DNA from: Peptostreptococcus russellii
GTDB lineage: Bacteria > Bacillota > Clostridia > Peptostreptococcales > Peptostreptococcaceae
Direction: 5' to 3'
DNA length: 64,000 nt
NCBI RefSeq assembly: GCF_003012055.1
Contig: NZ_JYGE01000003.1
Span: 248,001 to 312,000 of the forward strand
Numbering within the stretch: position 1 is the stretch's first letter; each line of letters opens with the position of its first letter. Positions 3,893-22,514 of this stretch are shown in pieces. A program made the translations under genes and the position numbers. The notes beneath the pieces are model-generated. The model was not told the origin of the DNA. It searched no databases and saw nothing but the letters and a program-made list of their open reading frames with translations.

Positions 3893-5539
3893 ATGAAGAA
3901 GAAAATGTCAGTAGTTCTTTCGGCAACTTTAGCTCTAAATTTAATGGCTTTTAGTGCTAGCCAACTTTCAAGAGTAAATGCTGAAGAAGAAACAAGTCAG
4001 TTTGAAACGATTTCTAGCTTAGAAATAGATAATGTAAAAAGAAGCGAAGTAGAAGATAGTATATTAAAGCCAGGAATTCCAAATGCCCCAGTTCTAAAAA
4101 TAGATGACTATGCAAGCGCAGTAGCGGATATAAGAAAAGATTTGAATAAAGATATCGAACTACCTTTATTTGTTAGCTCTTCTCAAAGTGCTATAAAAGG
4201 TAAGTTAATGAAGGGTGTGGGTGTAGCTCTTTATAAGCTTAGTGATGAAGATCTAAAGAAAAATGAATTTACACCAATAGCCAATGGAACAAATAGCGAT
4301 AATCTAATATCTGATAGTAAATTCAGTATCCAATCAGAAAATGGGGATTTTTTACTTCCTTTTAAGAATGAAAATTTAAAACCAGGAGATCACATAGGAA
4401 TATGTGTTTCATACTCAGTTAATAATCAAAATAAAACTTTTATAATTGATTCTATATACTTGGGTATAAACTCTCCTACAATAGCCCTTAATGAAAAGGT
4501 CGATGTTAAAACGCTAATAACAGGTCTTCCAAGTGATGCAATAATTGAGACTGTTAAGGAAGTAGACAGCTCTACAATAGGAAGTCATGAAGCTAAAATC
4601 AATATTAAGTATAAAAATACATCAACACCATTATCACTAGCTGTTTTAGTGAATGCTAATGGAGGCACAGGTCAGGAAAATATAGTTACAAGTCCTTATA
4701 GAGTTGCTGGAAGTAATAGATTTTCAACAAATATAGAGTCTATTAATAGAAACTTTGAAAAGGGGAAGGTCGACACAGCTATAGTAGCTTCTGGATTTAA
4801 CTTTGCAGATCCACTAGCAGCTGGACCTTTAGCAATGAAGATGAACGCTCCAATAGTATTTTCTGGTGATAAAGGCTTAAACGCTGAAGCTATTAAGACA
4901 ATAAATAATTTAGCTGTTAAGAATGTAATAATAGTTGGTGGAAATAACACAGTTCCAGCAAATGTAGAGACACAATTAAGCGGTCTAAATGTTAGAAGAA
5001 TAGCAGGTGTGAATAGATATGAAACATCTAAGTTGATAGCAAAGGAATATGGTCCTTCTAGAAGTGCAATATTTACTGATGGTAGAATGTTTGCGGATGC
5101 ACTATCAGCAACACCTTTGTCCAAGAAAATATCTGCACCAATAATTTTACTTAGAAATGAGAACAATATACCTGCAGATGTAAATAAATATAAAGATGCT
5201 TATATAGTTGGTGGTAAAAATTCAGTAAGTGTAGGAATCGAAAATAAATTAAAGAACTCAATAAATCCAGACAAGGTTTATAGGGTGTTTGGTGCAAATA
5301 GATCACAAACATCTACACAGGTAGCAAAACTTGTTAAATTCGAAAAAAATATTATAGCAAATGGAAATAGCTTTGCAGATGCTCTAAGTTCAGTAAATAT
5401 GCTGAATACAGGTGGTAAAAACCTAGTCTTAGTTGGAGATACAAGAGCTTCAAATGATGCAATAGAGTTTATAAGTGGAAAGACTAATTACATAATAGGT
5501 GGTTATTCTACAGTTCCAAAATCAATATTAGGATTTTAA
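3893..5539 (+). CDS. Secreted cell wall-binding repeat 2 (CWB2/Cwp-type) protein
   Basis: A 548-residue exported protein. The N-terminus has a signal peptide (KKK, hydrophobic core, likely cleavage near VNA-EE at residues 29-31). Residues about 45-260 form a domain I do not recognise, possibly two small beta-rich modules. Residues 262-548 carry three CWB2 repeats (Pfam PF04122), each opening with a RxAGxNR or RVFGANR motif and containing FADAL or FADPL and an IVGG or IIGG turn. In Clostridioides such triplets bind anionic cell-wall polymers non-covalently. The function of the N-terminal part is unknown. It has its own promoter region and terminator, so it is probably monocistronic. Confidence 0.9.
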   Translation: MKKKMSVVLSATLALNLMAFSASQLSRVNAEEETSQFETISSLEIDNVKRSEVEDSILKPGIPNAPVLKIDDYASAVADIRKDLNKDIELPLFVSSSQSAIKGKLMKGVGVALYKLSDEDLKKNEFTPIANGTNSDNLISDSKFSIQSENGDFLLPFKNENLKPGDHIGICVSYSVNNQNKTFIIDSIYLGINSPTIALNEKVDVKTLITGLPSDAIIETVKEVDSSTIGSHEAKINIKYKNTSTPLSLAVLVNANGGTGQENIVTSPYRVAGSNRFSTNIESINRNFEKGKVDTAIVASGFNFADPLAAGPLAMKMNAPIVFSGDKGLNAEAIKTINNLAVKNVIIVGGNNTVPANVETQLSGLNVRRIAGVNRYETSKLIAKEYGPSRSAIFTDGRMFADALSATPLSKKISAPIILLRNENNIPADVNKYKDAYIVGGKNSVSVGIENKLKNSINPDKVYRVFGANRSQTSTQVAKLVKFEKNIIANGNSFADALSSVNMLNTGGKNLVLVGDTRASNDAIEFISGKTNYIIGGYSTVPKSILGF

Positions 5540-5875: not shown

Positions 5876-7174
5876 ATGAATAGTCGTAAAAAAATTAGTG
5901 TTTTATTGATTTCTAGCATTGCCTTATCATCTGGATTTATCCAAACTCCTGTTATGGCAGATACTAGTCAAACAGAGCACGTAGGGGATATAATCAATTA
6001 CTCTCCTGAAATGATGGCGAGTGGTGAGGGGATAAACCCTAGAAAAATTGTAGATAGAAGCTCTATAAAAGAGATAACAACTTTGTATAGGGAATCGGAA
6101 AAAATAGAATTAGATAGTTCAAAGATTTTAGATAATTATGATCTATATTTGAACTTTGCCAATAATGTTACCATAGGATTTAGAACGAAGGAACTGGACG
6201 GAGATTATTTGGGCTATTGTACTACTGGAGGTCAAATAGTTCCTTTTAAAACAAAAGAAAATATAGCTGTGAAAATATTAGAGATAATTAGAAATACAAA
6301 CAAGTTTACTGATTATTATGATGACGGACAATCAATACGTGAAGGAGACTCTGTTGCAAAAGCAATTGAGCTAAGTAGAGCAAGCTATTCTTCAGCTGAA
6401 AACGTTGTAATTACAGGCGTAGATGGTATTGCAGACTCACTTGCATCAGCACCATTATCAAGCTTTTTAAAAGCACCAGTACTTGTTACAGAAAAAGAAA
6501 GTTTAAGGAGCGATTTAGAAGCTGAAATCAAAAGGTTGGGAGCGAAAAATATATACTTTACATCTGGAAACAATGTTATAAGTTCTGGAATAAAAGATAA
6601 ATTAAAGAAAAATGGGTATAATATAAATGATCTCTCTTCTAGAAATAGATACGAAACTGCTGAAAAGATAGCACAGTATTTAATTTCAGAGGATGGAAGT
6701 GGAGAAAAAACTATTTTAATTAATGGGAAAAATTATGCCGATGCACCTTCGATATCAGCATTTTCTTATGAACATAGAGCTCCCATACTACTTACAAATG
6801 GTAAAATATTAAGAAAAGAAACATTTGATATCATTAAGAAAAATGAAAACCTATTGATAGTAGGGGGGTACAATTCTATACCAGAAGCTATGCAAAATAA
6901 ATTAAGTGATAATTATATCAAGAATGCTAGACTGGATGGTAAGAATAGATACGAAACTTCTAGAAATATAGTATCTGGATTATTTACCGATACAGATAAA
7001 CTTTTGATTGCTGATGGAAACAAGGATTTAGCTGCAGGAATAATATCAGCAGGATACTGTGTCAAAAATGATAGGCCATTATTACTTATAAAAAAAGGCG
7101 ACAAAAATAATGCTTTGCTAAAAGATAAGGGAGTAATGTACTTATCTATCAAATCATACGAAAATTTACATTAA
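5876..7174 (+). CDS. Secreted CWB2-type cell-wall protein, second copy
   Basis: A 432-residue exported protein with a signal peptide (NSRKK, hydrophobic stretch, likely cleavage after VMA near residue 29). A short unknown region covers residues 30-150. Three CWB2-like repeats follow: GDSVAKAIELSR with ITGVDGIADSLASAP, then SRNRYETAEKIAQ with INGKNYADAPS and IVGGYNS, then GKNRYETSRNIVS with IADGNKDLA. The first and last repeats are degenerate compared with the neighbouring gene, lacking a clean FADAL or a final VGG turn. RBS AAGGAGGGG precedes the ATG. It probably arose by duplication with the preceding gene, since both are tandem, separately terminated and similarly organised. Confidence 0.85.
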   Translation: MNSRKKISVLLISSIALSSGFIQTPVMADTSQTEHVGDIINYSPEMMASGEGINPRKIVDRSSIKEITTLYRESEKIELDSSKILDNYDLYLNFANNVTIGFRTKELDGDYLGYCTTGGQIVPFKTKENIAVKILEIIRNTNKFTDYYDDGQSIREGDSVAKAIELSRASYSSAENVVITGVDGIADSLASAPLSSFLKAPVLVTEKESLRSDLEAEIKRLGAKNIYFTSGNNVISSGIKDKLKKNGYNINDLSSRNRYETAEKIAQYLISEDGSGEKTILINGKNYADAPSISAFSYEHRAPILLTNGKILRKETFDIIKKNENLLIVGGYNSIPEAMQNKLSDNYIKNARLDGKNRYETSRNIVSGLFTDTDKLLIADGNKDLAAGIISAGYCVKNDRPLLLIKKGDKNNALLKDKGVMYLSIKSYENLH

Positions 7175-13019: not shown

Positions 13020-13353
13020 TTGAGTACAGCAGATGATCGCAGGCAGAAATGCGTGAGGAAAGTCGGAGCACCACAGAGCAGGGTGCTAGGTAACGCCTAG
13101 TGAGAGCAATCTTAAGGACAGTGCAACAGAGAGATACCGCCGTTTTATACGGTAAGGGTGGAAAGGCGAGGTAAGAGCTCACCAGCGCATAGGTGACTAT
13201 GTGGCTATGTAAACCCCACCTGGTGCAAGGCCAAGTTAGGAATTAGGAGTGTAGCTCGCACTCCCCAGATGGTAGGCCGCTTGAATCTATTGGTGACAAT
13301 AGGTCTAGAAAGATGATCATCTAATACAGAACTCCGCTTATAGCTGTGCTTAA
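13020..13353 (+). ncRNA. rnpB: RNase P RNA (bacterial type A-like)
   Basis: The catalytic RNA that trims the 5' leaders of tRNA precursors. The universal core is visible: GAGGAAAGTCGGAGC (P4 5' strand region), the GGTAACGCCTAG stretch, GCAACAGAGAGATA, the GTAAACCCCACC loop, and the 3' ACAGAACTCCGCTTATAG (P4 3' strand). The P1 helix can be drawn exactly: TTGAGTACAGC 13020-13030 pairs with GCTGTGCTTAA 13343-13353, with two G-U pairs. This fixes both ends. The arrangement looks like the ancestral type A rather than the Bacillus type B. Confidence 0.97.
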
Positions 13354-13397
13354 TAAAAATAGCTGCATTGTTTTTTCAATGCAGCTATTTTTATTAA
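13350..13397 (+). terminator. Terminator of rnpB
   Basis: A perfect 21-bp inverted repeat (13350-13370 and 13377-13397) with a 6-T loop. The descending arm carries the T-run. It overlaps the last bases of the rnpB P1 helix. Confidence 0.92.
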
Positions 13398-13539
13398 TAA
13401 TGTGAAATAGGTCTAAACAAATACATTGAGGAGTGTATCAGTACATATTTATATGGATTTATACAGCCAGATATTGTATAATAGAAATGTATATTGCAAA
13501 ACATTTTTTGCGAAACTTAACTAGTAAGGAGTGAAGGTT

Positions 13540-16500
13540 TTGGATAACTATGGAAAAGAATTAATCCAATCTGCTGTTAAAGAGGTAGATAGGAAGTTTA
13601 TAGAAAATAAATATGAATTTAATCGCGAACTAAATAACGCACTAAGAAACAAATACAATAAAGTAGAGAAAGATGAAGAAAAATATATAGGACTTTTAAA
13701 GTTTAATGTGATCTACTATAAAGCCATTATAAAAAAATTGGAAACTATAATGGAAATGTGGATACAAAACGGGGTAATATCAAGTACAGAATCTGTAGAT
13801 AAAAGTATAGAAAATATTACTAGATCTTCAAGAAAGTATGTCAATGAGGCTATGAAAGGTGGTCCTCAACATCTAAATGACAAGGACAAAGAGATATTCT
13901 TCTCTTATGATAATAACAGTGGATTAGAAAGAATTGAAAAAGTAGAAAATGACTATAAAATATTAAATATCTACAAGGATATGCTGGGAATGGTAATAAC
14001 TGAAATTTCTAGTAATGTAGACAAGTATAAAGTTATTTTGGATATGAATGTAGCTGAAGTAAAGATTGACACAATGGATGAAATATTTAAAATGGTCAAT
14101 GAAATCCTATTTAGCGAAGATCCTTCTAAAAGTGAATTTGAAGATGAAGCATTGGTAGGGGATGAAGAAATTACAAGTACTAATGTTGAAGACTCAGATA
14201 AATGCACAAGCTTTAAAAAGTATGTATCAATGATTAGTACACCAGAAATTTCTGTTAAAATTAATGATATGTTCAGAAGGTCAAATGATTTAGAAGGGGT
14301 TGAAGAAGGAGATTCATATCTTTTTTCAGTTGGAATGAAAGATTATGTTTCTTGTATGGTTCTTTTGCAAGATTATCTACCAGAAGACAATAGAGCATTT
14401 ATAAAAAATATTTTTAGAATGTTTGTAGTGGGTAAAATCAGTGAAGAGAAGTTCAAAGAAATATGTGACAGTTTTATAAGAGACTATACTTTTCTTGATA
14501 AAAGAACTTGGTTGGAGTGTCAGAAGAATGTAAAGTCAGATTTTAATTTAAAAAACAATAACTTCTTTGGTGAAAGAAGTATAGATCATAATATAGAAGG
14601 ACTTTCCAATGATGAAATAATAGAACTACTAATTCATCTTGAAGATGGAATGAGTATAGCAGAAGGTATAGAGTATGCAATAGAAGATTCTTTTGTAAGA
14701 CAAGATGAAGAAAATATTACTGGATTTGCTCAAAAAATCAAGCAAGGTTTTTCTTCTCTTTCAGATAAGTTAAAAATAAATGAAAGTCATGGAGATGAAG
14801 AATATGGTGACTTGGAAGAAGACTTTGATGAAGAGTTTTATGATGATGAATTTGAAGACGATATAGATGATTATAACGAAGAGTATGATGACAAAGAAAG
14901 TTTTACTAGCAAAATAAAAAATCTATTTAGTAAGCATAAATATGATGATGATCTTGAAGATGAGTCGGATGATTATTATGATGAGGATGAATTTGAAGAT
15001 GATGTCGAAGATTATGAGATAGATCCAGAAATGTTTACTGGAGATGAAGCGATTCAAGATGAAGGCGCTATCGAAATACTAAAGATGCGAGAAAAAAGTA
15101 AGAGAAGAGAAGACGAAAGAATTAAGAAAGAATATGATAAGTTACAAAGTGAAAGACAGTTAACTGAGGAAATAAATAAAAATGGTTCGATGTCTTTTGT
15201 AGAAGATGAAGATATAATATTTGATGAAAATGACTATGTATATAAAAAAGACAAGGAAGTAAGAAGAGATTCATCAGAAAAAATAAATAAGGATCTATTT
15301 GATAATACTATAAATGGAGAAATATCTTTAGATGAAGAAAGAATACAAGAAGATACTGAAAAGGAGTCAAGTATAAAACAATCTATCACTCCTGATGATC
15401 TTGAAAAGTATAATAAGGAAGAAAAAAATGAGTTTAAACCTATCTTAGGAGAAACTCAAAGACTTCATACTGGTAATATCAGAAGATCTGATGATGAGAC
15501 AACAGTAATAGAATTAGGAGCTTTGGATAGTGTTAGAGAAAAGAATAAAAAACATCCTCATATAAAAGATGATGTGCAGAAGATAGATAGAAAGAAAAAA
15601 ATCTACTCTTATGAGGAGTCATTGCCATCAAAGTTAAAAGCGGATGAAGATAAAAAAGAATCTGAAGTAAAAAAAATAGAAAAGAAAACAGATGATAAAG
15701 ATGCGAAGCTTAAGAAAATGAATGATGGACATGTATTTGAAGAGTTGGAAGCTATGAAGGCTATGAATTGCAAAGATATCTCTGTAACACCAACTGATTC
15801 AAATAAGAAAGAAAAGGTGGACCTATCTTCTTTTGGAAAAAACAAACACAAAAATAAATCTAATAAAAAGCTTAGCGTAGATAAAGTGACTAGCACTGAG
15901 AAAGTAGCTAGCAAGAATGACAGGCCGAAAAAAGAAGAGTTAAAGCAAGAAAAAGAAAATAAAAAATCAATAGATATAAAAAGCAAAATAGGGAATATAG
16001 GTAAGGGAATTGTAGGAGATGATACTGGTGAAACTGTTATGTTCTCTAAGAAGAAGATGATAAGAGATACTGTAATAGTAGTGGCAATAGTAGTATTAAT
16101 ATTCTTCTCATACATATTTATTATCAAAGGATTTAAGGTTCCAACAGTAGAAGAGACTAATAAGAATACGAAAATAGCACAAGAAGCAAAGAATAAAACA
16201 AATGTAGACTCTTATAATAAGGGATTAAATAAGGACACAAAGGACATTACTCAAAAGACTGAAAAAGAAAAAGAAAAAGATGAAATTGAAGCTAAGGCAG
16301 GAGAACTGGATAGAGAAGCCGCAAAGTATAAAGGGCAAAAGGGTGTTTACTATACAGTATTTGTTGGAGCTACAAAGGATAAGGATGGTGCTGAATCTGT
16401 TGCATATAATTTTGCACAAAGAGGTATAGACTCTAAAGTTGTAAGAAATGGTGGTTATTATATGCTAAAGGTAGGAGAATACTTTGATTATAATCAAGCA

Positions 16501-16737
16501 TACTCCCAGTCACAAAAGATTAGTTCAAAAGGAATACAAAATTATATAGCTGCTCAGAATAAATATTATGATTTAAAGATTGAAGCATATCAAACTAGAA
16601 TACCTAACTTGTCTGCGGATCAGCTTAAGACTGATTATGAAGATCTCAAAAATCAAATATCTTCAACAGGAAAAAATTCTCAATATGTTACAAACTTAGA
16701 TGAAATTTATTCAGAGGCTATAAAAGAAAAACAATAA
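13540..16737 (+). CDS. Large bitopic membrane protein with C-terminal SPOR domain (MldA-like division protein)
   Basis: About 1065 residues: a long cytoplasmic N-terminal part, a very acidic D/E-rich stretch (roughly residues 422-500), K/E-rich coiled-coil-like sequence to about 835, one membrane helix (about 841-864), and an extracellular SPOR domain (about 932-1010, VYYTVFVGATKDKDGAESVA ... YMLKVGEYFD). SPOR domains bind stripped septal glycan, so this protein should sit at the division site. Membrane topology, coiled coils, SPOR domain and a following cytoplasmic partner match the published description of C. difficile MldA; homology is inferred, not proven. The GTG at 13531 lies in the RBS (AAGGAG), so the TTG at 13540 is preferred. 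Confidence 0.85.
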   Translation: MDNYGKELIQSAVKEVDRKFIENKYEFNRELNNALRNKYNKVEKDEEKYIGLLKFNVIYYKAIIKKLETIMEMWIQNGVISSTESVDKSIENITRSSRKYVNEAMKGGPQHLNDKDKEIFFSYDNNSGLERIEKVENDYKILNIYKDMLGMVITEISSNVDKYKVILDMNVAEVKIDTMDEIFKMVNEILFSEDPSKSEFEDEALVGDEEITSTNVEDSDKCTSFKKYVSMISTPEISVKINDMFRRSNDLEGVEEGDSYLFSVGMKDYVSCMVLLQDYLPEDNRAFIKNIFRMFVVGKISEEKFKEICDSFIRDYTFLDKRTWLECQKNVKSDFNLKNNNFFGERSIDHNIEGLSNDEIIELLIHLEDGMSIAEGIEYAIEDSFVRQDEENITGFAQKIKQGFSSLSDKLKINESHGDEEYGDLEEDFDEEFYDDEFEDDIDDYNEEYDDKESFTSKIKNLFSKHKYDDDLEDESDDYYDEDEFEDDVEDYEIDPEMFTGDEAIQDEGAIEILKMREKSKRREDERIKKEYDKLQSERQLTEEINKNGSMSFVEDEDIIFDENDYVYKKDKEVRRDSSEKINKDLFDNTINGEISLDEERIQEDTEKESSIKQSITPDDLEKYNKEEKNEFKPILGETQRLHTGNIRRSDDETTVIELGALDSVREKNKKHPHIKDDVQKIDRKKKIYSYEESLPSKLKADEDKKESEVKKIEKKTDDKDAKLKKMNDGHVFEELEAMKAMNCKDISVTPTDSNKKEKVDLSSFGKNKHKNKSNKKLSVDKVTSTEKVASKNDRPKKEELKQEKENKKSIDIKSKIGNIGKGIVGDDTGETVMFSKKKMIRDTVIVVAIVVLIFFSYIFIIKGFKVPTVEETNKNTKIAQEAKNKTNVDSYNKGLNKDTKDITQKTEKEKEKDEIEAKAGELDREAAKYKGQKGVYYTVFVGATKDKDGAESVAYNFAQRGIDSKVVRNGGYYMLKVGEYFDYNQAYSQSQKISSKGIQNYIAAQNKYYDLKIEAYQTRIPNLSADQLKTDYEDLKNQISSTGKNSQYVTNLDEIYSEAIKEKQ

Positions 16738-16778
16738 ATTCACTGTATTAATATACTGATATTAAGGAGGAACAGGTT

Positions 16779-18764
16779 TTGTTAAAACTTGGAGAAAAAA
16801 TAATATTTAGTATAAAATCTGGATTCAGTCTAAATGGCGGTTACGATTACAATTTAGATGATAAGTGCTTGCAATTAACAAACCTTGGAAACATATATGT
16901 TTCCAAGGTTGATTGTTTACCAGAAGAATGTTCAGATTTTATTATGTATGACTATTCTGAAGAAGGAATTAATCTGTATTCAGAGCTAGATGGCGAAAGT
17001 ATTAATATTATTTCTGAAGAATTACCATTTAAACTCATAGAGGGTAATCATAAGACAGAAATAAAATTAAGCCTAATTATGATATTAGATTTCGAAGAAT
17101 TTGCAAAAATTGATGAAGAAATCAAAAATATGATATTTGATTTTAGGCAAGGTGACATTATAATGACAGCAGATGGTAAGCATATATTTGCTGGAGAGCT
17201 AGAAAAAGAAGATGCAAGGCTAATATTTAATAGTGGAAGAAATCGATTTGAATTGAACTTTGAAGATGTTGAAAGCTTCTCTGAATCGTTTAATCGAATA
17301 AATTTTAAGGGATACTTCTATATGGATACAAACTCCATAGTTATGAGAAATATTTCTTTTGTAGGAGCGATCGAGCAATATCTATTACCGAGAGACTTCG
17401 AAAAAATACTATCTGAAAATAAAAAAATTGGAAGACTACCGAAAGAAGATCCTGTGGTTTTTTGTAAGGTTACGGGAAGAATAAAAGAAAAAACATATTT
17501 ATCTAAGAATATGTTTCTTATAAACCATGATGATTTATTTGTGTTTTATGAAAAGAAACAAAAGAATGAAGTTATATGTAAGGAAATTAGCAACTTTACT
17601 AAATACGATTTGGGAAATGGAAATTATATAATTTACGACGGTGATGATGTATACAATATGTACATTAATAAAAATGACGCAGAAATGGTAGGGTTTAATA
17701 GTATGGGCGAAATTAATGAGAAATATATAGGTTATACAGAAGGTATGAGACCTTTCTTCATAGAGATTGACAAAGATTTAATAAAAATAGGCAACTCTAA
17801 AGAAAATTCTGTACTAAATATTAAAAAAGAAGAAATTTCCGAAATAAATATTCATGAAGAAAAGAAAACAGTAAATGAAAATCTGATCAATATTCAAATT
17901 AGGTATGCGAATAAAAAAGTAAACTTGAACTTAAGTAGAAAACTAGTTCCAGAGTTAATTGATGATGTATTTTCAGGTTATCAAAACTCACTATTTGACT
18001 ATGTGTCAGTAGAAGAAAGTTATCTAAATTGGGTTAAGACCGTTTCTGATATGGTAGTTTACAATCTATTTGGTGAAATATATGGATTAAGCGGCAAGCT
18101 ACCTATGGGTAGACCAGAAAACTATGACACACTAGAATGGGTAGATTTTATTAACGATTTTCATGAGGAAATTGAGTCCCAAAAAAGAAATACTGATGAA
18201 ATCACAGTATACCTTACAGATATACTAGAAAAAAATGAGTTGAAATACTTTAAAGGTTTAGGGAAAGAATGTGATACATCTAGTCTCGAAAAGTTAAGCT
18301 CACTTTTAATTGAAATGAGAAGAGATTTAAATTATGATTTAAATGATATCCTTAAGAAATTTGAGATGTTAGATTATTTAATTTTGCCTAAAAACATGAG
18401 AAAATCATCAATCAGACTTCTAAAAGAAAGTCAAATATATCAAATAGAATATTTTGGTAAGATGGCCCTTAAAAAGATAAGACATTTAATTTATGCTATG
18501 CTACCATATTATATAGAAAAGACTATAAAGAGTATATTTGAAATATACTTTAAAATATATGAAAATTATGAAGGAATAGATGAAATAGAATTAAAAACTG
18601 AGTTAATGAATAGAATAAAATCTGCTTATATATTTAAACAGTTCTCTATCAGTGAAGAATCCTGTGTATTGAGAAAAGATGCAATAGATGACTTATATTC
18701 ACTGGTTAAATTTTCTTCTATGAGAATTGATAGTGAATTTTACTATACTGGTGGATACAGATAG
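16779..18764 (+). CDS. Large cytoplasmic protein of unknown function (MldB-like candidate)
   Basis: A 661-residue soluble protein with no signal peptide or membrane helix. I do not recognise a named domain. The first ~230 residues look beta-rich and may be a repeated module: GDIIMTADGKHIFAGELEKE and a related segment near residue 340. The last ~200 residues are helical (DLNDILKKFEMLDYLILPKN onward). The start is a TTG with AAGGAGG at good spacing. It lies 41 bp after the SPOR protein gene, presumably co-transcribed. C. difficile MldB is described as a cytoplasmic division protein with two conserved domains of unknown function, which fits; assignment is by context. Confidence 0.75.
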   Translation: MLKLGEKIIFSIKSGFSLNGGYDYNLDDKCLQLTNLGNIYVSKVDCLPEECSDFIMYDYSEEGINLYSELDGESINIISEELPFKLIEGNHKTEIKLSLIMILDFEEFAKIDEEIKNMIFDFRQGDIIMTADGKHIFAGELEKEDARLIFNSGRNRFELNFEDVESFSESFNRINFKGYFYMDTNSIVMRNISFVGAIEQYLLPRDFEKILSENKKIGRLPKEDPVVFCKVTGRIKEKTYLSKNMFLINHDDLFVFYEKKQKNEVICKEISNFTKYDLGNGNYIIYDGDDVYNMYINKNDAEMVGFNSMGEINEKYIGYTEGMRPFFIEIDKDLIKIGNSKENSVLNIKKEEISEINIHEEKKTVNENLINIQIRYANKKVNLNLSRKLVPELIDDVFSGYQNSLFDYVSVEESYLNWVKTVSDMVVYNLFGEIYGLSGKLPMGRPENYDTLEWVDFINDFHEEIESQKRNTDEITVYLTDILEKNELKYFKGLGKECDTSSLEKLSSLLIEMRRDLNYDLNDILKKFEMLDYLILPKNMRKSSIRLLKESQIYQIEYFGKMALKKIRHLIYAMLPYYIEKTIKSIFEIYFKIYENYEGIDEIELKTELMNRIKSAYIFKQFSISEESCVLRKDAIDDLYSLVKFSSMRIDSEFYYTGGYR

Positions 18765-18950
18765 AAAGTTATTTTATAGCTTATAATAAATAAAATTGTA
18801 TGATTTATGGAAAGCTATGAGAAAATGTAGTATTATAGGTAGTATATTCTTTTTGTATATTATTTTTAGTTATAGTTAGTAATTAATAAAGACAGTGCTT
18901 GTATAAGATATAATATATTTATAATTGACTTGAAGGGAATGGTTAAAGTT

Positions 18951-19127
18951 ATGTTGATAAGCGATATAATGAATAGAGAATATAAATTATGTGAATTTGA
19001 TGAAAGAGAAAAAAGCGTGTTATATCGACTAGTAGATTTAGATGATCTACTTTTAGAAGATGCTAATATTGATGAAGATAATATTTTGGAAATTGTGGAT
19101 CCAGATATAGCGGGCAAACTTATTTAG
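18951..19127 (+). CDS. Small acidic protein (MldC-like candidate)
   Basis: A 58-residue very acidic protein (EFDEREKSVLYRLVDLDDLL, then LEDANIDEDN), predicted cytoplasmic. It has no domain I recognise. Codons are open from a TTG at 18930; the ATG at 18951 has GAAGGG about 12 nt upstream, and the ATG at 18939 touches that site. The true start is therefore uncertain by up to 7 codons. A possible -10 (TATAAT near 18910) lies upstream. It follows the large cytoplasmic protein and ends 17 nt before the preferred galE start, so it may be co-transcribed with either. As the third member of the SPOR-protein cluster, it parallels MldC, a cytoplasmic protein without known domains. Confidence 0.65.
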   Translation: MLISDIMNREYKLCEFDEREKSVLYRLVDLDDLLLEDANIDEDNILEIVDPDIAGKLI

Positions 19128-19144
19128 AGGAGATGATAAATTTT

Positions 19145-20167
19145 ATGGATACAATATTATTAGCGGGTGGTGCAGGCTATATAGGAAGTCATACTGCCGT
19201 AGAACTATTAAATTCTGGTTATAAAGTTATAATAGTTGACAACTACTCTAATAGCTATCCAATTGTAATAGATAGGATTGAAAAAATCACTTCAAAGAGA
19301 CCTACTGTATATGAAACAGATACTAGAAGTAAAGATTTTGAAAAAGTATTTAAAGAAAATAAAATAGATGCAGTAATAGATTTTGCAGCATATAAATCAG
19401 TTGGAGATTCAGTAAAGGAACCTTTAAAATATTATGATAATAATATTTTATCACTTTTAAATACATTGAATCTGATGAAGAAATACAATGTCAATAACTT
19501 TGTTTTCAGTTCATCGGCAACTGTATATGGAAGTGTTCCAGATGAGGATCTTCCAGTAGATGAAGATTATGGTAGAACTACTACTAATCCTTATGGAAAC
19601 ACAAAGCTAATGGGAGAAGAAATTCTTGAAGACTTATCACATTCAGATAAACAATTTAATAGTATTATTTTGAGATACTTCAATCCAATAGGCGCACATA
19701 AATCGGGGCTTATTGGTGAGGAGAGTACAGAAGTTCCAGCAAACATTATGCCTTATCTTACAAAGGTGGCTATTGGTGAGCTTCCATATCTTAGAGTGTT
19801 TGGAGATGACTATGAAACAGCTGACGGTACTGGTGTAAGAGATTATATACACGTTGTAGACTTGGCAGTTGGTCATGTAAAGGCTCTAGAGAGAATCTTA
19901 CACAAGAATACAGGGCTAGAATATTATAATCTTGGAACAGGTAGAGGCTACAGTGTGATGGAACTTATAAATGAATTCTCAGCTGTTAGTGGAATAGATA
20001 TTCCATATAAGGTTATTAAAAGAAGAGAAGGAGATGCAGCATCTTCTTATGCAGATTCGTCAAGAGCAAAGAAAATATTGGGCTGGGAAGCAGTTCATAA
20101 CTTGAAAGATATGTGTGAAGATTCTTGGAGATGGCAGAAGATGAATCCCAAAGGATATATAGAGTAA
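19145..20167 (+). CDS. galE: UDP-glucose 4-epimerase GalE
   Basis: Interconverts UDP-glucose and UDP-galactose with bound NAD, supplying galactose for surface glycans or channelling it into central metabolism. It shows the Rossmann motif GGAGYIGSH at residues 8-16, the SSSATVYG segment with the catalytic Ser/Thr, the YGNTK catalytic Tyr/Lys pair (NPYGNTKLMGEEIL), and the conserved GTGVRDYIHVVDLA. Length (340) is normal. The ATG at 19133 is fused to the GAGGAG site, so the ATG at 19145 is the credible start and gives the usual N-terminus. The two lipoprotein genes downstream may share its transcript. Confidence 0.96.
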   Translation: MDTILLAGGAGYIGSHTAVELLNSGYKVIIVDNYSNSYPIVIDRIEKITSKRPTVYETDTRSKDFEKVFKENKIDAVIDFAAYKSVGDSVKEPLKYYDNNILSLLNTLNLMKKYNVNNFVFSSSATVYGSVPDEDLPVDEDYGRTTTNPYGNTKLMGEEILEDLSHSDKQFNSIILRYFNPIGAHKSGLIGEESTEVPANIMPYLTKVAIGELPYLRVFGDDYETADGTGVRDYIHVVDLAVGHVKALERILHKNTGLEYYNLGTGRGYSVMELINEFSAVSGIDIPYKVIKRREGDAASSYADSSRAKKILGWEAVHNLKDMCEDSWRWQKMNPKGYIE

Positions 20168-20202
20168 CAGTTGTAAATCAAAAAGATAGTGGAGGAGGAT
20201 TT

Positions 20203-21315
20203 ATGTTCAAAAAACTTGTTTCTGTTGTTTTGATTACAATGCTAGTTATTCTTATACCTGGATGTAGCAATGACAAAAGCGTGAAATCAGACAACAAAGA
20301 TATCACTAATAAAAAGGCTGAGGTAACAATATATTTGCCTGAAGGACAGGATATAGATAATAAGTATAAAGATGATATTGATATAGCGGTCAACTATCTT
20401 CCAGATAATGGTAAAGATTTTACCAAAAAAGATGTAGACACTATTGTAAATAATATAGATAAACACGTAAAGGTATTAGTTATTAGCACTGAAAAAAGTG
20501 GTCTAAGCGATGTGTTTAAAAAGGTGAAAGAAAAATTGCCAGGTGTAATAACAGTAGCAGGCGATATAGGAGAAATGCACAATGATAAATTCGCTTCTCT
20601 TTTGAAAAACCCGAATCTAGATGTAGGATTTAGAGTAGAAAAAAATAAGTGTGGGAAATTAGCAGCTGAAATGGCCGAGCAGATGAATGCAAATAAATTT
20701 TTATATTTATATTTAGAAGACACTAAAGAAAATCCAAATCTATATGAAGATATTAGTCAAGCAAAAGCATACTGTGATAAAAATGGGATGGCTTTTTCAA
20801 AGCTTGCAGTAAAAAAAGAAGATATAAACTCAGGACTTGCTGAAAAAATAAAAGCTATACAGCCTGATAAGATTGAAAATTTAGCAGTATATCCTGCTAG
20901 CTCAGCCTTATCAAAGGAAGTACTTAACGGTGCAGTTAAGAATTCTTATATAATTCCATATCTAAATAGTGGACAAGACGGCAATTTGCTATCTGACAAA
21001 CTGAACTTGGATAAGGAATATAAAGAGCTAAGTAGATTATCATTTGATAAAAAAGTTCAGGACAAACTAAGTAAAATAAATATGGATGGAAAAATAGCTG
21101 GAATATCAGAAGGTGTTGATTCAGTGCCAGCTGAACTAACAATAGAAATAGCAAAATATATGTATGAAAGAAACTATATGATAGAAGAATGCTATACTGA
21201 TGATTCTGTAAAAGACAGAGCGAATAGAATGCTAGATTTATCGATACTTCCAGAATACATCGGAGCATCTTCAGGATATATAAAGAATCTATCAATTAGT
21301 CCAAGAGTGTATTAA
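20203..21315 (+). CDS. DUF3798-like surface lipoprotein, first copy
   Basis: A 370-residue lipoprotein: signal KKLVSVVLITMLVILIPGCS with the lipobox Cys near residue 20, then a type-1 periplasmic-binding-like fold (VTIYLPEG, VKVLVISTEKSG, PGVITVAGDIGE, KFLYLYLED, KIAGISEGVDSVPAELT). It resembles the second, clearer DUF3798-type gene just downstream. Function is unknown for this family; solute binding is likely from the fold. The frame is open from 20125 inside galE, but the ATG at 20203 follows GGAGGAGG and a lipoprotein signal begins there. Stop and next start are 12 nt apart, so the two are co-translated. Confidence 0.8.
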   Translation: MFKKLVSVVLITMLVILIPGCSNDKSVKSDNKDITNKKAEVTIYLPEGQDIDNKYKDDIDIAVNYLPDNGKDFTKKDVDTIVNNIDKHVKVLVISTEKSGLSDVFKKVKEKLPGVITVAGDIGEMHNDKFASLLKNPNLDVGFRVEKNKCGKLAAEMAEQMNANKFLYLYLEDTKENPNLYEDISQAKAYCDKNGMAFSKLAVKKEDINSGLAEKIKAIQPDKIENLAVYPASSALSKEVLNGAVKNSYIIPYLNSGQDGNLLSDKLNLDKEYKELSRLSFDKKVQDKLSKINMDGKIAGISEGVDSVPAELTIEIAKYMYERNYMIEECYTDDSVKDRANRMLDLSILPEYIGASSGYIKNLSISPRVY

Positions 21316-21326
21316 TGGAGGGAAAG

Positions 21327-22514
21327 ATGAATAAAAAATTTAAAAAAATTCTTCTTGCATCTACTTCTATAGTTTTATCATCACTTCTATTGATTGGATG
21401 TTCAGGAAAAGAAAGCAAAAACCAAGCTGAACTACTAGACAGTAAAAAAGATTTAAATACCAAAGTAGCAATAGTAACTCAGAGTAAGAAGGAAAATGAA
21501 AGAGCATTTTCTTCTGCAGAATCAGAGAAACTAAACAGTCTATACAGAATAGAAAGAGATCCAAAGAAAAAAAGTAGTGTAGAGCACTTTGTTTTGCCAG
21601 ACAACTTTGAGAGTAATGAAAAAGCTACTAGAGATGTATTTGATAAAATAAAAAAAGATAAAAAAATAAATGTTTTAGTTTTATCTTCAAACAAATCAGG
21701 AAGCCTACCGTACATTAAAGATTTAAAAAAAGAAAGAAAAGATATAATGACTATTTCAGCTAACTTAAATGAAGATGACAATAGTCTTATCGATACTTTT
21801 GATTTAAACTTTGAGACCGCTGATATTGACAGAGGTGAAAGAATAGCCGAACTTGCAAAGTCACTGGGTGCTGAAAGATTTATTTACTTTGCTTCAGATA
21901 AAGATTTAAGTAATGAAAAAAATAAAAAAATACTGGATGGAATAGTATCTAAGTCAAAACAATGTGATATGCCTACTGAGGAGATAAAAATAGCAAATGA
22001 ATTGAACTCCTATGAAAAGAAAGCTTTCCTATCAAATAAAATTGATGAGTTAGTGAAAAAGTATGGAAAAGATATAAATATATATAGCTTTGATAGCGAG
22101 TTAGATGAAGTGTTGGCTAGTAAACTTTTGGAGCAGAAATTTTTTGTTGCTGAGTTTTCCAAGCCAAATGTATCAAAGCTACTGATGAATATATATGGAA
22201 TAAAGGGAATTTCAAGAATGCAGGAAAATTTTGTATGGATGAATTCTCAAATAGGAACATTTTTAAGAGTTAATCATGATATAGAAAGAAGAGTGGGATC
22301 AAGTGGAGTGGATGCAGACTCTTATATTATTAAATTTGCTTCTGACCTAGGAGCAAATCTTAAGAGCAAGAATAAGGGAGCTCAAACAGCCTATAACTCA
22401 TACTTCTTAGAAAAGATATCTAGAGCAAGAGGAAAAACTGAAAGTGGATTTGTGAATAAGTATAAGGGTGTGGGTAATTTTAAAATTATTGATCCAGACC
22501 AAATAGTTTATTAA
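21327..22514 (+). CDS. DUF3798-family surface lipoprotein, second copy
   Basis: A 395-residue lipoprotein with lipobox LLIGC (Cys near residue 25). The mature part matches DUF3798 proteins: VAIVTQSKKENERAFSSAE, VEHFVLPDNF, INVLVLSSNKSGSLPYIKDL, DIMTISANLNED, GAERFIYFASD. It has a periplasmic-binding-like alternation of strands and helices. No transporter permease or ATPase gene accompanies either copy, so it may serve an unlinked transporter or act as a receptor. The ATG at 21315 runs through the GGAGGG site; the ATG at 21327 is preferred. It is followed 39 nt later by asnA. Confidence 0.83.
   Translation: MNKKFKKILLASTSIVLSSLLLIGCSGKESKNQAELLDSKKDLNTKVAIVTQSKKENERAFSSAESEKLNSLYRIERDPKKKSSVEHFVLPDNFESNEKATRDVFDKIKKDKKINVLVLSSNKSGSLPYIKDLKKERKDIMTISANLNEDDNSLIDTFDLNFETADIDRGERIAELAKSLGAERFIYFASDKDLSNEKNKKILDGIVSKSKQCDMPTEEIKIANELNSYEKKAFLSNKIDELVKKYGKDINIYSFDSELDEVLASKLLEQKFFVAEFSKPNVSKLLMNIYGIKGISRMQENFVWMNSQIGTFLRVNHDIERRVGSSGVDADSYIIKFASDLGANLKSKNKGAQTAYNSYFLEKISRARGKTESGFVNKYKGVGNFKIIDPDQIVY

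Follow-up and report, generated by a model that had tools for sequence, protein, structure and literature searches.

The closest described counterpart of the locus considered here is the Mld system of Clostridioides difficile, whose founding study of 2014 is said, in its abstract, to have reported curved, chaining cells for mld mutants and the presence of Mld only in C. difficile and a few close relatives. The system bears on the question of what replaces FtsA, FtsN and the canonical FtsW/FtsI pair in this species, which, according to one study (PMC10693644), divides without FtsA and FtsN homologues and lacks the canonical pair. We analyzed a window of 64,000 nucleotides from the 2.08-Mb genome of Peptostreptococcus russellii (labeled G000; further G and L numbers are likewise our labels for genomes and loci), in which an earlier note had proposed an mldA-mldB-mldC cluster beside rnpB. 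No paper containing MldA and Peptostreptococcus together as whole words was found in the literature searched, and the main text of PMC12539705 does not mention Mld. On balance, we consider it moderately probable that this cluster, as the Peptostreptococcus version of C. difficile MldABC, works as a transmembrane septal scaffold.

Three co-directional open reading frames (ORFs) are present on the forward strand, as the earlier note had described, downstream of the class A RNase P RNA gene rnpB (13021..13356, +; Rfam RF00010, 275.4 bits, E 7.6e-89), and galE starts after them at 19133. The first of these, mldA (+), ends at 16737 and begins either at GTG 13531, the start that matches C. difficile MldA, or at TTG 13540, the start chosen previously, which is plausible because AAGGAG (13526-13531) sits 8 nucleotides ahead of it. 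The second, mldB (16779..18764, +), has a TTG start and encodes 661 residues. The mldC ORF opens at TTG 18930 with 65 residues, and the alignment with its relatives (nine Peptostreptococcus MldC sequences) sets the start at ATG 18951, giving a protein of 58 residues (18951..19127, +).

Profiles of the Peptostreptococcus proteins (8 rows each) were compared by hhalign with those of the C. difficile proteins (4 rows each). MldA aligns with C. difficile MldA over its full length (columns 1-1068 against 1-848, E 4.3e-52) and MldB matches its counterpart overwhelmingly (E 2.8e-93), while the match of MldC is modest (E 0.0024, probability only 12.3), reaching E 3.6e-6 and a probability of 87.5 over 39 columns when nine Peptostreptococcus rows are aligned with eight rows from other genera. 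The six mismatched pairs of Mld profiles gave E values of 0.13 to 0.79, and each protein thus pairs specifically with its own counterpart, which upholds the homology proposed from architecture and order. A profile of the MldA N-terminal domain finds the protein in its own genome at E 4.4e-147, a value to which its own sequence, being part of the profile, contributes. At the level of sequence comparison we regard the identification as Mld as firm for MldA and MldB and as good for MldC. It is extremely improbable that the locus resembles Mld in architecture only, its SPOR protein belonging to a different envelope family and its two neighbors being unrelated: SPOR domains are common and the present one scores barely above the Pfam cut-off, but MldA and MldB have specific, full-length matches, which refute this for both proteins, and the gene order is kept in several genera. 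Nor does the SPOR protein fit a different family better, as the NCBIfam FtsN model (TIGR02223) reaches only 29.1 bits (E 7.1e-7) with MldA, below its cut-off of 107.65 and far behind the full-length MldA match.

The reference for these comparisons can be tied to the published protein. PMC9674922 gives a phosphopeptide, SVVIPIK, at S573 of CD2717 mldA of C. difficile, and in the MldA that served as reference (L065, genome G042) this peptide is found precisely at residue 573; judged by this position, the reference MldA is the published mldA. Elsewhere in the group the same peptide lies at residue 570 (L066) or 565 (L022), and in L037, L038 and L040 an I replaces one V; the genus group of G042 also holds G044, in which mldB has the same coordinates as in L039, a named C. 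difficile locus. The Peptostreptococcus and C. difficile clusters share the three genes in the same order, one span plus SPOR, and rnpB upstream. Identity is 26% for MldA (to L022) and 30-31% for MldB, both over the full length, whereas the homology of MldC is at motif level. Furthermore, MldA is longer in the present genome (1068 residues against 836-862) and its linker is more acidic, MldC is shorter (58 against 106 residues), and between mldC and galE C. difficile has an extra gene, which looks galU-like from its sequence.

Hydropathy analysis of MldA reveals one strong hydrophobic segment (residues ~847-865, best 19-residue window at 847), and the SPOR domain follows at residues 940-1006 (E 1.8e-4, 22.2 bits against a Pfam cut-off of 21). 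A helical N-terminal domain (1-~345), with a mean predicted local distance difference test score (pLDDT) of 82.9 in the predicted model, precedes an acidic linker, the membrane span and SPOR. This agrees with the bitopic protein described earlier, in which the N-terminal domain is putatively cytoplasmic and the SPOR domain putatively external. The acidic stretch, at residues 422-500 (14794..15030, +), had been called unusual. It is real, with 43 of its 79 residues being aspartate or glutamate, a composition that none of 2000 shuffled versions of this protein reached, but it is not limited to Peptostreptococcus. An acidic peak starting at 410-427, which 0 of 200 shuffles reach, is found in seven of the nine Peptostreptococcus MldA proteins, with the peak of L017 located at 583 instead and that of L023 reached by 2 of 200 shuffles. 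Both Peptacetobacter MldA proteins also have such a peak (at 550 and 512; 0/200 shuffles). In C. difficile, L037 comes close to having one (2 of 200 shuffles reach its peak), and L022 has no such peak (37 of 200).

MldB, at 661 residues, contains no strongly hydrophobic segment, consistent with the cytoplasmic protein of about 660 residues noted before, and a Pfam search returned no match for it at E up to 1. Its AlphaFold2 model (mean pLDDT 85.3) has a beta-rich N-terminal half and a helical C-terminal half (387-642), and structure matches support a PH-like domain well at 315-402 and modestly at 220-312. We therefore predict, for the first time here, one or more PH-like domains among the four modules suggested for the N-terminal half. 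Rtt106 and FACT (SSRP1/Pob3, Spt16) have tandem PH domains whose fold resembles that predicted for MldB within 220-402; these proteins are, however, eukaryotic and ~6-16% identical to MldB over the aligned parts, and no common function is implied. MldC, with 58 residues and a net charge of -11, corresponds to the tiny acidic cytoplasmic protein that had been proposed. In the Metaclostridioides group (L044:3394-5715 and L051-L054), mldB and mldC lie within one ORF, clearly so in 4 of 5 loci. This MldC-MldB fusion, newly reported here, is evidence for an MldB-MldC pair.

Among named genomes, a scan for MldB yielded 16 loci, namely seven in Peptostreptococcus, four in C. difficile, two in Peptacetobacter and one each in Terrisporobacter, Metaclostridioides and Asaccharospora. 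Of the 71 family genomes, 27 have MldB, representing 6 of 23 genera, and the N-terminal domain of MldA occurs in exactly the same 27; a search of 393 genomes sampled from the larger set for the order, scoring up to three candidates per genome, returned 27 as well, all of them the same family genomes. Hence the restriction to one species and a few relatives, on which the earlier note relied, amounts, for the genomes searched, to six genera within a single family. MldA and MldB are present in all nine Peptostreptococcus genomes examined. The genes follow one another as mldA-mldB-mldC in the loci of Peptostreptococcus, C. difficile, Peptacetobacter, Terrisporobacter and Asaccharospora, and rnpB adjoins mldA in 19 of the 25 loci examined for gene order, on the opposite strand in L030. 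It was not seen beside mldA in the other six, namely L032 of P. anaerobius, L042 of Terrisporobacter and the Metaclostridioides-group loci L051-L054. In Asaccharospora irregularis (L045:4743-6230), mldB is shortened at its 5' end to an ORF of 495 residues and the longer match meets two stops, reflecting either a broken gene or a sequencing error.

Only one of the six Terrisporobacter-group genomes, that of T. petrolearius (G084, equated with L042 by identical coordinates; L042:7255-11677), has Mld, in a variant version of the cluster. Its MldA of 553 residues has YARHG (PF13308, E 2.5e-22) in place of SPOR, for which the Pfam search gave no match, and its MldC reads as a string of DxDxDG-like repeats, with Pfam EF-hand matches below cut-off. 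The MldB tree (17 rows) joins Terrisporobacter with Asaccharospora at a support of 100/100. A quick RpoB/RpoC tree was built for 63 of the 71 family genomes (G015, G023, G052, G054, G058, G063, G066 and G085, with no usable RpoB, were omitted; G086 entered without RpoC and G010 with part of it), and it rejects a clade of all Mld genomes in the approximately unbiased test (p-AU 2.6e-78). Taken together, horizontal transfer into T. petrolearius is therefore the simplest reading and probably the correct one, and the SPOR-to-YARHG variant is new here. The estimated contamination of this genome is 6%, but its Mld contig also holds an FtsX match (G084:C111, E 1.6e-22) with a score near that of its relatives (G082, 1.7e-22).

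What such a scaffold might stand in for can be approached through the division proteins of the same 71 genomes. FtsX, counted by its extracellular domain PF18075, is found in 36 of them, and it coincides with Mld in a single genome, T. petrolearius with its SPOR-less variant, leaving 26 genomes with Mld only, 35 with FtsX only and 9 with neither. This contrast speaks for Mld being a functional replacement of FtsEX, the ABC-type coupler of ring and hydrolases, that arose as one branch of the family lost FtsEX. The curved and chaining cells reported for mld mutants would be in line with such a role. In B. subtilis, a slight curve or bend is often seen in cells that lack FtsEX (PMC6705773), and PMC12140426 connects the loose separation of C. 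difficile cells with the lack of FtsEX, naming Mld in the same paragraph. We nevertheless regard this replacement as unlikely. The 24 Mld-only genomes on the RpoB/RpoC tree are compatible with one clade (p-AU 0.562), and because they may form one clade the contrast comes close to a single independent evolutionary event, a lead rather than proof; an independent-pairs test of Mld against FtsX has no power and cannot reach significance. The nine genomes without both and the one with both also count against it, with FtsEX represented in the counts by FtsX. The chaining reported for the mutants, moreover, sits ill with a published statement. MldA and MldB "promote chaining" according to PMC12140426. 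It can be speculated, with considerable doubt, that Mld is a second, unrelated FtsEX-like device, in which a SPOR-anchored PH-domain scaffold without ATPase couples the ring to septal wall splitting, and which took over in the Peptostreptococcus-Clostridioides branch at the loss of FtsEX, being modular (the SPOR-YARHG swap) and mobile between lineages. The likeness to FtsEX concerns only the proposed role of linking the division ring to wall splitting; no ABC-type family reaches its cut-off in MldA, MldB or MldC, and the two systems are compared by distribution only.

FtsN is bitopic with an external C-terminal SPOR domain, a layout that MldA shares with its one span and putatively external SPOR, and the FtsN profile matches MldA weakly. 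Mld could accordingly replace FtsA/FtsN, as an anchor or activator of the septal synthase PBP1 and not of hydrolases. A possible role of Mld in regulating PBP1-driven septal synthesis is proposed in PMC10693644, which also notes that C. difficile lacks FtsA and FtsN. This role appears rather unlikely to us, as FtsA above the curated cut-off was found in 0 of 71 family genomes, with or without Mld (7 of 14 control genomes), and Mld does not track the loss of FtsA because FtsA over the cut-off is missing from all 71. MldA also differs from FtsN in its conserved cytoplasmic domain of ~345 residues and its MldB/MldC partners. As a separate observation, five genomes (G077, G068, G023, G011 and G067) encode long FtsA-like proteins (644-702 residues, 95-112 bits, below the FtsA cut-off), and all five are without Mld and with FtsX. 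Peptostreptococcus comprises anaerobic cocci, and the presence of Mld in a coccoid relative had been taken to suggest a more general septation role. Mld is indeed found in a genus of cocci, but the argument is weakened since the genome retains two MreB genes over the curated cut-off (C5:132362-133318 and C2:15598-16578), so that the coccoid shape here is not a loss of the rod gene.

Codons 35-44 of mldB (16881..16910, +) form a perfect palindrome of 30 nucleotides. The corresponding 13-pair RNA hairpin is kept in all nine Peptostreptococcus genomes, with one compensatory change (C-G in four, U-A in five) and one G-U; the pair counts alone, made on 5 distinct rows, are not significant, as 47 of 500 shuffles score equally high. 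When folded as RNA, all eight Peptostreptococcus sequences used (L035 was left out) have z-scores of -3.2 to -4.3, compared with -1.0 for C. difficile and +1.1 for Peptacetobacter. Over codons 35-47, in a stretch picked after the hairpin was seen, identical codons are used in all nine genomes at 7 of 10 invariant residues versus 9 of 76 elsewhere (Fisher p 1.9e-4), and for codons 35-44 alone the values are 5 of 8 versus 11 of 78 (p 0.0049); the best 10-codon window of galE has four identical codons versus five in the hairpin stretch. The hairpin was not found in the loci inspected from C. difficile, Peptacetobacter, Metaclostridioides and Terrisporobacter, the palindrome has a single occurrence in the window when up to 3 mismatches are allowed, and its exact pattern has no match among viral contigs. 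This conserved hairpin, new here, is a candidate for either an RNA element or a DNA site.

Downstream of the cluster, galE (19133..20167, +; Pfam GDP_Man_Dehyd / Epimerase) is identified by its domain and by synteny. It follows the cluster in 11 loci of relatives, lies upstream in Terrisporobacter and was not seen 3' of the cluster in Peptacetobacter L041. Two adjoining DUF3798 genes (20125-22514) are located 3' of galE here and likewise in eight other Peptostreptococcus loci, and the pair is not present in the C. difficile stretch L022. The window also contains two genes (3893-5539 and 5876-7174) that each contain three CWB2 stretches (Pfam PF04122) for cell-wall binding, a type known from surface proteins of C. 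difficile, and a gene ~30% identical to the first of them comes after galE in C. difficile loci.

The comparisons establish the relationship of all three genes, their order and a SPOR domain joined by one predicted span to a conserved, putatively inside domain, from which we infer the septal-scaffold role, perhaps in replacement of FtsEX. The SPOR domain of MldA would bind peptidoglycan at the septum, with the long acidic linker and the helical N-terminal domain sitting in the cytoplasm, MldB would be a soluble adaptor combining PH-like with helical parts, and MldC a short acidic peptide docking on the C-terminal side of MldB, so that the three proteins would make up a membrane-spanning scaffold linking the cytoplasmic division ring with the building and splitting of the septal wall. 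Mld itself is known but poorly understood, and the present comparison adds evidence that MldB and MldC form a pair, a PH-like prediction for MldB, an exchange of the outer domain and the contrast with FtsX. The comparison yields the predictions that MldB binds MldC, that MldB is a PH-domain protein and that Mld may stand in for FtsEX. With Mld in each of the nine genomes examined from a genus of cocci, we contend that it is a module shared by part of the family and not an oddity of C. difficile.
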